Below are positions 35,978 through 40,742 of a DNA stretch of 44,505 nt, piece after piece. This DNA is from Mycoplasmatota bacterium (lineage in GTDB: Bacteria; Bacillota_I; Bacilli_A; RF39; UBA660). Position numbers and translations under genes: made by a program. A model generated the notes under the pieces. The model did no database searches. It was not told the DNA's origin and saw only the letters and a program-made list of their open reading frames with translations. The number at the start of each line of letters is the position of its first letter. Position 1 is the stretch's first letter. The stretch is taken from assembly GCA_012727915.1 (NCBI GenBank), contig JAAYGD010000037.1, forward strand, positions 1-44,505. The letters are read 5' to 3'.

Positions 35978-37561
35978 TTACACCTCATTAAATGTATCTA
36001 ACAAATCATTTTCAAATAAAGCATAAGTACTCTTACCCTTTAATTCATTTAACAATAGATAAGCCTCTTTAACATTATTAATTATATGTATCTTTTCTTC
36101 ATTATATTCCATAGATAACAATCCATCCAATATTGGTTCAGTTTGCTTTTTTCCAACCAATATAACTTCATCTGCAACCTTAGCAATTTCCATTCCAAAT
36201 TCCATATTTAATTTATATTCTTTTTCTCCTAATTCAATCATTCCAGGAGTTACTACTATTTTTTTACCTGGCATCATATCCAATACTTCAAGAGCAGACT
36301 TAGCTCCTACTGGATTAGAATTATAAGCATCATCTATTATATAAATACCATTTTGTTCTTTTAATTCCAATCTATGTTCTATTGGTTTTAATTTTTTAAC
36401 AGCTCTTTGTAAATTCTCTATATCAATTCCAAATTCCAATCCTAAAGCAACAGCTCCTAATATATTATATACATTATGTTTACCTAATAAAGTTGTTTCA
36501 AATTTATACTTCTTCTTTTTTATTATTATATTAAATACCAATCCATTATTAGACATCTTAATATCAGATGCATATATATCAGCTTCCTTATTGTCTATTC
36601 CAATCCAAATAATCTTACATTTATTTTTCAATTTATAACTAACTTGATTAGCATCATCTTTATTTAAAACTGCAATTCCATCACTTGGTAAACTTTCTAT
36701 CAATTCAAACTTACCTTTTTGAATATTTTCTTCACTCTTAAAGGTTTCCAAATGCGCTAAACCGATAGAAGTAATTATTCCATATTTAGGATGAACTATA
36801 TCACATAATTCCTTAATATCTCCTAACTTACATGCTCCCATTTCAACTACAAACATTTCTGTAAACTTATCCAAATCATTATTGATAGTTTTCATAATTC
36901 CATTAGGAGTATTAAAGCTCTTTGGTGTAGTAAAAGATATATATTTTGAATTTAATATATCATTTAATATATTCTTACTACTTGTCTTTCCATAACTACC
37001 AGTAACTCCAATTACCTTTAAATTAGGTCTATCTTTTAATTTTTCTTTTGCACTCTTTAAATAATAATTAAATACCATTAATTCAATTGGTTTATTTATT
37101 AAATTCGCAATATAAGTAATTACATAAGATAAAAAAGAAAACATAAAAAATATAGAAGAAATAGTTGCTAATCCCATTTTATCATAATTAATATATACAA
37201 AATAAATCATCACTCCAAACAATATAAATATAGTAAGCATTAATCTTTTAATTCTACTAGTAATTACAAATTTCTTCTTCTTTTGTTCTACCTTAGCGTG
37301 TTTTAATTCTATTACAAATGCAGTTGTATACACTAATAAATTAATTGCGAAATATTTATCAACCAATACTATTGTAATTATTAATACCGAAAATATAAAT
37401 ATTTCATAAGAACTAAATGTCTTACTAGTATTTTTAAATATCCATTTTAAATATCTATTGCTCTCATTATAGGAATTTTGTTGAAGCATATACATAGATT
37501 TCCTATACTTAAATAAAGTATAAAAGAAATATGGCATCAAGGAAAATAAGAACTCATTCAT
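35978..37561 (-). CDS. murF: MurF-type Mur ligase with N-terminal membrane domain
   Basis: 527 residues. The ATG at 37561 has AGGAG. Residues 1-155 carry about four or five hydrophobic helices (FSLMPYFFYTLF; IFIFSVLIITIVLV; LMLTIFILFGVMIYFVYI; ISSIFFMFSFLSYVITYIANLI) where MurF normally has its soluble UDP-sugar domain. The catalytic and C-terminal domains are standard: IGVTGSYGKTSSKNIL (about 185), PKSFNTPNGIMKTIN, VVEMGACKLGDIKELCDIV, TSIGLAHLETF, IIDDAYNSNPVGAKSALEVL and TPGMIELG. It should add D-Ala-D-Ala to the tripeptide, at the membrane. A different ligated substrate remains possible because the sugar domain is missing. Confidence 0.85.
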   Translation of the reverse strand: MNEFLFSLMPYFFYTLFKYRKSMYMLQQNSYNESNRYLKWIFKNTSKTFSSYEIFIFSVLIITIVLVDKYFAINLLVYTTAFVIELKHAKVEQKKKKFVITSRIKRLMLTIFILFGVMIYFVYINYDKMGLATISSIFFMFSFLSYVITYIANLINKPIELMVFNYYLKSAKEKLKDRPNLKVIGVTGSYGKTSSKNILNDILNSKYISFTTPKSFNTPNGIMKTINNDLDKFTEMFVVEMGACKLGDIKELCDIVHPKYGIITSIGLAHLETFKSEENIQKGKFELIESLPSDGIAVLNKDDANQVSYKLKNKCKIIWIGIDNKEADIYASDIKMSNNGLVFNIIIKKKKYKFETTLLGKHNVYNILGAVALGLEFGIDIENLQRAVKKLKPIEHRLELKEQNGIYIIDDAYNSNPVGAKSALEVLDMMPGKKIVVTPGMIELGEKEYKLNMEFGMEIAKVADEVILVGKKQTEPILDGLLSMEYNEEKIHIINNVKEAYLLLNELKGKSTYALFENDLLDTFNEV

Positions 37562-37622
37562 ATTATCAACTCCTATTATCATTTTATCATAAAAAGTAAT
37601 ATATTATATAAACATTTTTTGA

Positions 37623-37628: not shown

Positions 37629-37644
37629 TAAATTGGGTGAAATT

Positions 37645-38958
37645 ATGAAATATATTTCTATTCTATTTGGAAAATTAGCAATTATACTTACCAAATTATT
37701 AAATAAAAAAGGTACTAACCTTCCAGGAGTAGTATCAAAAAAGATTAATAAAAATATATTAAGTAAATTTAATATAAAAGGAACTGTAATCGCAGTAACA
37801 GGTAGTTCTGGAAAAGGAAGTATAACTTCTTTAATATCTAATACATTAATAAAATTAAATGAAGATGTTATTCATAATACATATGGTTCTAATTTAGATA
37901 CTGGTATTATTTCTTTATTTCTAAAACATTGTGATTTAAAAGGAAATATTAATTCTAAATACATTGTGCTTGAAGTAGATGAAAGATATACCAAATATAT
38001 ATTTAAAGATACAAAACCTAAATATGTATTAATAAATAATTTATCTAGAGATCAACCTCCAAGAAATATGCATTTTGATTTTGTATTTGATGCAATAAAT
38101 AAAAATATAACTAAAGATATGCATTTAATAATAAACAAAGATGATCCATATTTAAGAAAATTTATTACAAATAATAAAGTTACATACTATGGAATAGAAG
38201 ATACTAAATATTCATATAAAGAATCATTATTTAAAAATTTAAATATTACTAGATGCCCATTATGTAATTCAAAATTAAACTATAAACATTATTTTTTTGA
38301 AACACTTGGAAATTACTCTTGTACTAAATGTAATTTTAAAAGAGGAGATGTAGAATACAAATTAACTGATTTAAATTTTGATAATCTTACTATGATTATT
38401 AATAATAAATATAAAGTTAATTTTGGATTTGATATGTTATTCTCAGTTTATAATGTACTTGGAGCTTATACATTATTATCACAATTAAATATAAAGAAAA
38501 GTGAAATTGCTAATACTATTTCATCATTAGAAACTAATAAGAAAATATTTAATAAATATAAATTTAATAATAGAAGTGTATTTGTATTAAACAATAAGAA
38601 TGAAAATGCTACTACATTTAATCAATCAATGCTTTATATAAATAGAGATAATAATTTAAAAACAATAGTAATTGGATGGAAAGAAATAAGTAGAAGATAT
38701 AAATATGATGATATTTCTTGGTTATATGATATAGATTTTAATTTAATGAATAATATAGATAAAGTAATATGTGTTGGAGTTCATAAATATACAATTGCTA
38801 ATAGAATTAAATATGCAGGAATAGATGAAGATAAAATACTTGTATTTGATACTTTAAACGATAGTTATAGCGCCATTAAAGATAGTAATGGCAATATATA
38901 TGCTGTAGTTAATTTTGATTACGTAGAGCCATTTAATGCCCTTATAGGAGGTAACTAA
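37645..38958 (+). CDS. murT: MurT-like Mur ligase (lipid II amidation ligase subunit)
   Basis: 437 residues. The ATG at 37645 (GGGTGA upstream) is preferred to the TTG at 37633. Mur ligase central domain with P-loop AVTGSSGKGSITSLIS, where MurT usually has TGTNGKTT. MurT-specific NNLSRDQPPR motif. A four-cysteine zinc ribbon (CPLC about 204-207, CTKC about 226-229) is inserted in the central domain. DUF1727-type C-domain (KVICVGVHKYTIANRIKYAGI). With GatD, MurT converts D-Glu of lipid II to D-iso-glutamine. It overlaps gatD (TAATG). It is divergent from murF/murE. Confidence 0.88.
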   Translation: MKYISILFGKLAIILTKLLNKKGTNLPGVVSKKINKNILSKFNIKGTVIAVTGSSGKGSITSLISNTLIKLNEDVIHNTYGSNLDTGIISLFLKHCDLKGNINSKYIVLEVDERYTKYIFKDTKPKYVLINNLSRDQPPRNMHFDFVFDAINKNITKDMHLIINKDDPYLRKFITNNKVTYYGIEDTKYSYKESLFKNLNITRCPLCNSKLNYKHYFFETLGNYSCTKCNFKRGDVEYKLTDLNFDNLTMIINNKYKVNFGFDMLFSVYNVLGAYTLLSQLNIKKSEIANTISSLETNKKIFNKYKFNNRSVFVLNNKNENATTFNQSMLYINRDNNLKTIVIGWKEISRRYKYDDISWLYDIDFNLMNNIDKVICVGVHKYTIANRIKYAGIDEDKILVFDTLNDSYSAIKDSNGNIYAVVNFDYVEPFNALIGGN

Positions 38959-39575
38959 TGAATATAGTAATTGCGCACCTTTATTATGATATTCTAAACC
39001 TGTATGGTGAATCAGGTAATATAGATGTATTAGAATACCATTTAAAAGATAACAATATAAAATACACTATTAAAAAATTAACATTAGAAGATAAATTAAA
39101 CTTTGATGAATATGATTTAGTATATATGGGTTCAGGTACAGAAAACAATCAAGCATATGCTTTAAATCATTTAAAACAATATAAAGAAGATATAAAAAAA
39201 AATATAGATAACAATAAATTATTTCTAATTACAGGTAATTCAATTGAACTTTTTGGAAAAGATGCATTAAATATATTTGAATTCACTTCTGAAAAACAAG
39301 ATAAAAGAACAGTATTAGAAATAAATACAAAAATAGATCAATTTGATTCAAACATACTAGGATTTATTAATCAACAAACTAAACTAAATAAAGATACAGA
39401 ATTTATTATAAACAAAAACTTTATAGGAACGCATCTTCTTGGGCCAATACTTGCAAGAAATCCCGAAGTATTAAAATATTTATTTAATAAATTAACTATA
39501 ATAAAAAAATTAAATCTATCTTTAGATGAAAAAGCTTATAAAGAATATATTAACTTCAAAGAGAATGTAAAATAA
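38958..39575 (+). CDS. gatD: GatD-like amidotransferase subunit lacking catalytic residues
   Basis: 205 residues (S. aureus GatD is about 243). The CobB/CobQ-type class I amidotransferase fold is recognisable: IAHLYYDILNLYGESGNIDVL at the start, DLVYMGSGTENNQAYAL, and GTHLLGPILARNPEVLKYLF at the end. However, the nucleophile-elbow position that normally reads ICGG.QLLG is here LITGNSIELFG, with Gly93 where the Cys belongs. The GTYLHGP-type catalytic His segment reads GTHLLGP, with Leu161. The ENH-type strand is also changed (GFINQQTKLN). The frame is continuous, so this is divergence and not a sequencing frameshift. GGAGG serves the ATG. It probably still pairs with MurT. Confidence 0.82.
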   Translation: MNIVIAHLYYDILNLYGESGNIDVLEYHLKDNNIKYTIKKLTLEDKLNFDEYDLVYMGSGTENNQAYALNHLKQYKEDIKKNIDNNKLFLITGNSIELFGKDALNIFEFTSEKQDKRTVLEINTKIDQFDSNILGFINQQTKLNKDTEFIINKNFIGTHLLGPILARNPEVLKYLFNKLTIIKKLNLSLDEKAYKEYINFKENVK

Positions 39576-39632: not shown

Positions 39633-40742
39633 ATGAGAAAAAGAAAAAAAAGAAAATTTAAAACTTTTTTGATTCTAATATTTTTATTAGGATTAGCTTT
39701 TATATTTTACTATATAGATAAAAACGATAATGATTATACAGATAAAGAAATAAATAAAAAATTAAAAGAACTAGGATATAAAGAAGATTCTATTAATAAA
39801 ATAAAAGAATTAAACTTAATAGATAAAATAAATGTTTATTCAAATAACTTAGAAGAAGCTTTAAATAAAAATATATTTAATGAAAACTGTATAGAAAGTT
39901 ATATTAATTTAAATAAAGATTTTAATACAATATATAAACTATGTAATTTAAATTATAATGATTCTGAAATAAAAGAAATTACTAATAATTTAGATTCAGA
40001 TACTATTAATAAAATTAATACTTATTTAGATAAATTAAGTCTTTATTCAACACATAATAATTTCATATTAGATAATTATGATAGATATAACAATTATGAA
40101 GAAACAGATATAAAGAAAAAAATATCATATGTAAATGTAAATTTAGATTATGAATTTTATGAAAATATAAAAGATTCAATAAATACAAATAATAACTTAG
40201 TATTAGTTAATAAATATTATAAATTAAGTGAAGATTATATTAATATTATGGATAACATAAGTATAGAATGCGCAGTAAGATATGATATTAAATTAGAAAC
40301 AAAAGCAAAAGAAGCATTTGAAAAACTATGTTTAGATGCTAAAGAATTAGGATATAAAATAGTAGGAGTATCAGGTTATAGATCATATAATACCCAAAAA
40401 ATAATATATAATAATTACTTAAAATCAGATTCTATTAAAAATGTTGATACCTACTCCGCTAGAGCAGGTCACTCAGAACATCAAACAGGATATGCTATAG
40501 ATGTATCAAATAACAATCTACCTTATAATAAATTTGGTTCTACTACAGAATATCAATGGGCAAAAGATAATATTCATAAATATGGATTTATTATTAGATA
40601 TACTACTGATAATCAATATATTACTGGATACAAAAATGAACCATGGCACTTTAGATATGTTGGAATTGAAGCAGCTACATACATTTATAACAACTCAATA
40701 ACATTAGAAGAATATTTATTAAACAATAAAGAAAAAATTTAA
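39633..40742 (+). CDS. Membrane-anchored D-Ala-D-Ala carboxypeptidase (VanY/M15B)
   Basis: 369 residues. Basic start (MRKRKKRKF), one membrane helix (FLILIFLLGLAFIFYYI), a helical stalk of about 190 residues, then the M15B domain (about 215-355). Zinc and catalytic motifs are complete: VSGYRSYNTQ, SARAGHSEHQTGYAIDV (His and Asp ligands) and EPWHFRYVG (WHxR with the third ligand). It should remove the terminal D-Ala from peptidoglycan stems outside the membrane. As the only such enzyme here, and with no VanRS or VanHAX genes, it is a housekeeping carboxypeptidase more likely than a resistance gene. Confidence 0.92.
   Translation: MRKRKKRKFKTFLILIFLLGLAFIFYYIDKNDNDYTDKEINKKLKELGYKEDSINKIKELNLIDKINVYSNNLEEALNKNIFNENCIESYINLNKDFNTIYKLCNLNYNDSEIKEITNNLDSDTINKINTYLDKLSLYSTHNNFILDNYDRYNNYEETDIKKKISYVNVNLDYEFYENIKDSINTNNNLVLVNKYYKLSEDYINIMDNISIECAVRYDIKLETKAKEAFEKLCLDAKELGYKIVGVSGYRSYNTQKIIYNNYLKSDSIKNVDTYSARAGHSEHQTGYAIDVSNNNLPYNKFGSTTEYQWAKDNIHKYGFIIRYTTDNQYITGYKNEPWHFRYVGIEAATYIYNNSITLEEYLLNNKEKI

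Follow-up and report, generated by a model that had tools for sequence, protein, structure and literature searches.

The window, a stretch of 44,505 nucleotides from a Mycoplasmatota bacterium (GenBank contig JAAYGD010000037.1), carries an intact gatD-like gene whose product has lost both the nucleophilic Cys and the catalytic His of the glutaminase, and this double loss was confirmed to span a clade including many uncultured gut bacteria, far beyond the single gene. The glutamine-hydrolysing site is replaced, not just broken, throughout the subfamily. We give about an even chance to the reading that MurT is here a ligase independent of glutamine, that the pseudo-glutaminase is its obligatory partner, and that together they amidate the alpha-carboxyl group of D-Glu in lipid II with ammonia.

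The GatD-like protein of the window

The gatD-like gene encodes 205 amino acids and overlaps the upstream murT-like gene by 1 nucleotide (TAATG, stop and start), in agreement with the intact, overlapping arrangement described in the original prediction (Table 1). MurT/GatD of S. aureus (6gs2/6h5e), S. pneumoniae (6fqb) and S. pyogenes (9sq9) show the same overlapping two-gene layout and the same folds. Profile searches matched the product to Pfam GATase_3 and NCBIfam GatD; the score for the latter (72 bits) missed the curated equivalog cut-off of 400, which is a weak test because canonical GatDs of other Bacilli miss it too. The sequence search also matched the solved GatDs 5n9m, 6gs2, 9sq9 and 6fqb. 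The top PDB structural matches of the AlphaFold2 model (mean pLDDT 95.6) were S. aureus GatD (6gs2_A, E 3.3e-17, TM-score 0.86 by query length), and the protein is thus a GatD by both fold and sequence homology.

Alignment with S. aureus GatD placed Gly93 (LITGNSIELFG) at the nucleophile C94 and Leu161 (GTHLLGP) at the catalytic H189 of the HGP motif, so that both substitutions first read from the motifs were upheld. The protein contains no Cys at all, as had also been stated, and no rescue Cys was present in the aligned relatives; a rescue Cys or alternative nucleophile was accordingly rejected. The glutamine-capturing Arg is present, window Arg117 being equivalent to R128 of S. aureus GatD, the residue that captures glutamine and whose replacement in R128A gives an inactive protein (PMC5871853). 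The protein was earlier noted to be about 40 residues shorter than S. aureus GatD, and this was correct (205 versus 243 aa), but a connection of the shortening with the lost residues did not hold. The difference is a trimmed loop, the deletion is present in the window lineage and some near relatives, and most relatives with the same loss have 220-255 aa; the shortening has nothing to do with the loss of the glutaminase residues.

Table 1. Features of the murT-gatD region and its flanks in the window
Feature	Position	Strand	Basis
MurF-like protein	35978..37582	-	
murT-like ligase gene: Mur ligase middle domain, Cys4 zinc ribbon, MurT_C	37645..38958	+	Pfam and PDB matches
MurT P-loop GSSGKGS (canonical GTNGKTT), catalytic Lys kept	37801..37821	+	Alignment; K59 in 124/124 partners
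GatD-facing MurT loop RDQPPRNMH (canonical RDQxDRxGE)	38047..38073	+	Arg/Asp/Arg unchanged; Asp to Pro, Glu to His
MurT C-terminal-domain loop Lys-Asn-Glu-Asn (canonical Lys-Asn-Pro), gained Glu	38596..38607	+	Clade-wide
MurT Asp equivalent to S. aureus D349, third residue of the GatD/MurT catalytic triad, present	38710..38712	+	Alignment
gatD-like gene, 205 aa	38958..39575	+	ORF, profile and structure matches, alignment
Former nucleophile elbow Thr92-Gly93-Asn94 (S. aureus Ile93-Cys94-Gly95)	39231..39239	+	Alignment, relatives without Cys
Arg117, equivalent to glutamine-capturing Arg128 of S. aureus GatD, retained	39306..39308	+	Alignment; Arg in 120/127
Leu161 replacing catalytic His189 (motif GTHLLGP)	39438..39440	+	His in 0/127 relatives and 33/33 canonical
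VanY/LdcB-type carboxypeptidase	39633..40742	+	

Distribution of the double loss among relatives

Conservation of the loss in the same lineage, a check proposed together with the original prediction, was examined by searching 147 related genomes with the window GatD protein. GatD was found in 50 of them. In the window's own family, both Cys and His were lost in 35 of the 37 genomes having GatD, the only canonical GatDs being those of G022 and G043; such recurrence of the same two losses, along with the high conservation of the substituted motif, indicates that the loss is not due to chance. A scan of species-representative contigs detected at least 578 further relatives among at least 593 matches, counts which yield no ratio because one of the two scan patterns is unable to match a GatD with His at the site and favours Cys-less/His-less sequences; the 147-genome search is free of this bias. 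All of the 80 relatives taken from the scan matches lacked both catalytic residues. They originated from RF39/Tenericutes-type Bacilli, from Erysipelotrichaceae and from Clostridia (Oscillospiraceae), and included that of a cultured bacterium, Massiliimalia massiliensis. In the open literature searched, including that on dead glutaminase subunits and RF39-type bacteria, we found no description of a Cys-less GatD subfamily, and the subfamily with its MurT is apparently undescribed there.

Remodelling of the GatD pocket

The residues at the former active site were compared between 127 Cys-less and 33 canonical GatDs. The column of C94 was occupied by Gly in 125 of the 127 Cys-less proteins and by Cys in none. 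The preceding residue, Ile/Val in the canonical proteins, was Thr in 125, the following one, canonically Gly, was Asn in 116, and the column of Q98 contained Glu/Asp in 116, giving an elbow consensus of TGN[SA]xE. At the H189 column, I/L/V/T and similar residues were found in the Cys-less set with no His, whereas all of the 33 canonical GatDs had His. The equivalent of R128 was Arg in 120 of the 127; the plug Tyr (Y16 in the window) was also kept, as were the Gly residues on the oxyanion side. When the 239 columns of the Cys-less set were ranked by entropy (counted from 0), T92 and G93 stood 4th and 5th, and R117 20th. The dN/dS values in close pairs of the set were 0.04-0.21. Such conservation of the T92, G93 and R117 columns and the low dN/dS indicate that the pocket is not dead and drifting, and the residue patterns strongly support the loss of glutaminase function in the Cys-less GatDs.

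The MurT partner and its correlated changes

The partner is the sole MurT_C match in its own genome. It was assigned to MurT by Pfam Mur_ligase_M and MurT_C, four zinc-ribbon Cys residues, the operon with gatD, and PDB matches to MurT of 7q8e/6gs2 (E 1e-46), and its AlphaFold2 model had a pLDDT of 91.9. The ORF can also be read from an earlier TTG start at 37633, upstream of the ATG at 37645.

The window-type pair shares with lipid II isoglutaminyl synthase MurT/GatD the zinc-ribbon MurT, the ATP and acceptor residues, the interface aromatic residue and Gly, and the glutamine-capturing Arg. The differences are the absence of the nucleophile Cys and catalytic His in GatD, a changed GatD-facing loop and KxE in place of KNP in MurT, and a P-loop altered in part of the Cys-less clade. 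Among 124 MurTs paired with Cys-less GatDs, the ATP/Mg/acceptor residues K59, N85, E108 and D110/E111 were kept in 123 or 124, and R133, D134 and R138 of the GatD-facing loop in at least 120; K315, D355 and the GatD-contacting W/Y were also kept, and the D349 equivalent was Asp or Glu in 119. The changes of these partners lie on the amine or GatD side, namely the gained Glu, G319 to S/T, and E141 to H. The C-terminal loop read K[NHA]E[NT] instead of KNP in 115 of the 124, as opposed to none of the 32 canonical MurTs. In S. pneumoniae MurT, the equivalents D136 and R140 are needed for activity while D139 and E143 are not (PMC6085368), and the residues changed in the partner loop (Asp to Pro/Thr/Ala, Glu to His) are exactly the equivalents of the dispensable D139 and E143. 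As the altered GatD motif is accompanied by these MurT-specific changes, such as KxE, both subunits have changed together.

The pairing is obligate. MurT and GatD were each present in 50 of the 147 genomes, in nearly the same set, and MurT was adjacent to GatD in 125 of the 127 Cys-less loci. Retention of the GatD-like protein as an obligatory partner of MurT is strongly supported by this pattern of occurrence.

Phylogeny and direction of the change

An unrooted tree was constructed from 97 concatenated MurT/GatD pairs with the trait columns masked. The canonical and Cys-less pairs lay on two sides of one branch (SH-aLRT 99), and about 16 changes were needed on the same tree when the labels were shuffled. 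Both Cys and His are present in related class I glutaminases, so the change was probably a loss. Canonical and Cys-less GatDs were not found together in one genome among the genomes examined, and all of the nine second GatD copies fetched from multi-copy genomes were Cys-less. These results suggest that the Cys-less pair replaced the canonical pair in the same role and did not add a function.

Several divergent loci were also observed. L050 and L051 have long branches and an uncertain placement. In L050 (G114:C4), Glu replaces the Cys and Arg the His, the MurT is without the DxSW motif, and the apparent loss is possibly independent of that in the main clade. In L032 (G085:C3), the Cys-less GatD is intact and the adjacent MurT (816-2033) has lost the residues of the P-loop and those binding Mg; this pair is possibly non-catalytic, and its genome also carries L051, a second pair that is very divergent. 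A second, deeper-branching Cys-less GatD/MurT type with the motif GTYLLGPxLxLNP comprises L036, L042, L043, L044, L045, L048, L173-L175, L177, L178 and L183. At the site of the Glu gained by the main clade, most members of this type have Gln or Leu, and the MurTs of L043, L044, L045 and L048 are without the D349 equivalent. Several genomes carry both Cys-less types.

Genomic context

The window genome is a reduced, metagenome-type assembly of 0.87 Mb. No match to glutamine synthetase was found in this genome (G000), and the enzyme was unmatched in nearly all of family f1, with one partial match in G065. The absence of glutamine synthetase was rejected as the driver of the loss, because G022 and G043 with canonical GatD also gave no match; being common to canonical members, it is context and not proof. 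Genome-wide decay of glutaminases was likewise rejected, as the Cys/His/Glu triad of PyrG (CTP synthase) is intact in the window genome, and the loss is therefore specific to GatD.

No conserved third gene was found beside the pair among 81 loci, in which only MurT and GatD were conserved and wall/division genes such as murG and ftsZ were occasional neighbours. In the window, gatD is followed directly by the VanY/LdcB-type carboxypeptidase gene; by a simple motif search, no other fetched locus had this neighbour. The MurF-like protein encoded on the opposite strand gave no match to the Mur N-terminal domain, Pfam finding the middle and C-terminal domains only, and its first ~180 residues look hydrophobic or membrane-spanning. 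The neighbouring murE has the motif DNPR, which we take to be that of meso-DAP-adding MurE enzymes. This is in line with the meso-DAP wall synthesis predicted in RF39, in a text from which MurT/GatD is absent (PMC10868615).

Proposed function and alternative explanations

In the mechanism considered here, the pseudo-glutaminase GatD would dock on a ligase of the MurT type, whose residues for ATP and the lipid II acceptor are kept, and the putative complex would activate the alpha-carboxyl group of D-Glu in lipid II with ATP. D-Glu would then be amidated without glutamine, with ammonia taken straight from the cytoplasm, and the pseudo-glutaminase, with selection still acting on its remodelled pocket, would be indispensable as both scaffold and gate. 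The closest precedent is S. aureus GatD-C94G, which lost glutamine-dependent amidation while ammonia-dependent amidation at pH 8.5 was unaffected; neither S. aureus MurT nor GatD works alone, GatD is needed even with ammonia, and the ammonia was used at pH 8.5 and not at pH 7.5 (PMC3266927). The Cys to Gly replacement is at the same position as in the natural subfamily, but the laboratory point mutant keeps His189, whereas in nature His and the neighbouring residues were also replaced and MurT co-varied. In human CPS1, Cys is replaced by Ser, the GAT-like domain is kept and only external ammonia is used (PMC4655335). The human/tetrapod enzyme thus resembles the present pairs in keeping a Cys-less class I glutaminase-like domain and taking ammonia from solution, but it is an unrelated synthetase in one fused chain with Ser in place of Gly, and its loss was independent. 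The archaeal MurT-like proteins of pseudomurein synthesis are also MurT-family ligases outside the glutamine-dependent norm; species with only MurT-like have no GatD homologue (PMC11915815), while Cys-less pairs always keep GatD. Given the GatD-C94G and CPS1 precedents, an ammonia ligase with a pseudo-glutaminase is the simplest reading, and by analogy ammonia would be the likeliest amine.

The constrained pocket including its Arg and the amine-side changes in MurT would also fit another amine or a regulatory ligand. It is possible, though rather doubtful, that the complex ligates another amine such as glycine to the alpha-carboxyl group of D-Glu, with a new amine site built from the altered MurT loops and what was once the glutaminase side. 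Such a role would agree with the strong selection on the pocket, its new invariant motif with the retained Arg, and the Glu gained in KxE[NT] together with G319 to S/T and E141 to H on the amine/GatD side of MurT, all the more as the equivalent C-terminal loops of Mur ligases bind ATP or the incoming amino acid. However, no amino-acid-handling gene recurs beside the pair, we know of no MurT using another amine, and the GatD-C94G precedent exists for ammonia only. Moreover, more than 20 A separate the GatD pocket and the active site of MurT even when the closed form is modelled (PMC6113224), so that a whole amino acid would not easily be delivered.

Less probable still, GatD may now have only a structural or regulatory role, gating MurT by binding glutamine, glutamate or some other ligand that it does not hydrolyse, as the retained Arg128 equivalent, oxyanion-side Gly residues and plug Tyr, and the GatD requirement of S. 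aureus MurT with ammonia, could be taken to suggest; this overlaps the ammonia-ligase explanation and differs only in assigning a putative ligand to the pocket. The original prediction had offered a structural subunit, an ammonia-dependent MurT or a ligase using another amine. Loss of the glutaminase stood and ammonia has the S. aureus precedent, but the strong constraint on the changed pocket (T92, G93, N94 and R117) is hard to reconcile with a purely structural remnant. A cryptic glutaminase acting through the nearly invariant Thr92, or through a His two residues before the old His (present in 26 of the 127, including the window), is highly improbable, as the Thr position, which immediately precedes the nucleophile, holds Ile/Val in canonical enzymes, the position of that earlier His is Tyr in 88 of the 127, and the alignment shows no conserved nucleophile/His pair. 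Most improbable of all is a decaying, functionless pair or an assembly error, which the small metagenome-type assembly and the shorter GatD might suggest but which is at odds with the intact overlapping ORFs, the high-confidence predicted fold, the same residues in independent genomes and the purifying selection in relatives.

Implications

Amidation of D-Glu controls cross-linking of the cell wall and is an antibacterial target. Amidation at position 2 also affects the sensing of wall fragments by hosts, for example through masking of the NOD-1 ligand in M. tuberculosis (PMC11132681). Homology-based annotation would mislabel the Cys-less GatDs as glutamine amidotransferases. The chemistry is directly testable, as at least one cultured species, M. 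massiliensis, has the pair. With some doubt, one may imagine a widespread gut MurT/GatD subfamily in which the glutaminase was turned into a ligand or amine site and a group other than ammonia, such as an amino acid, is placed on the position-2 D-Glu; if true, this attachment would be an undescribed wall chemistry. With ammonia as the amine, the Cys-less pairs would be a natural version of S. aureus GatD-C94G and a bacterial parallel to the ammonia-using CPS1. If D-Glu is amidated at all in this clade of gut Bacilli and Clostridia, which is large and apparently unannotated, the step would take place without a glutaminase.
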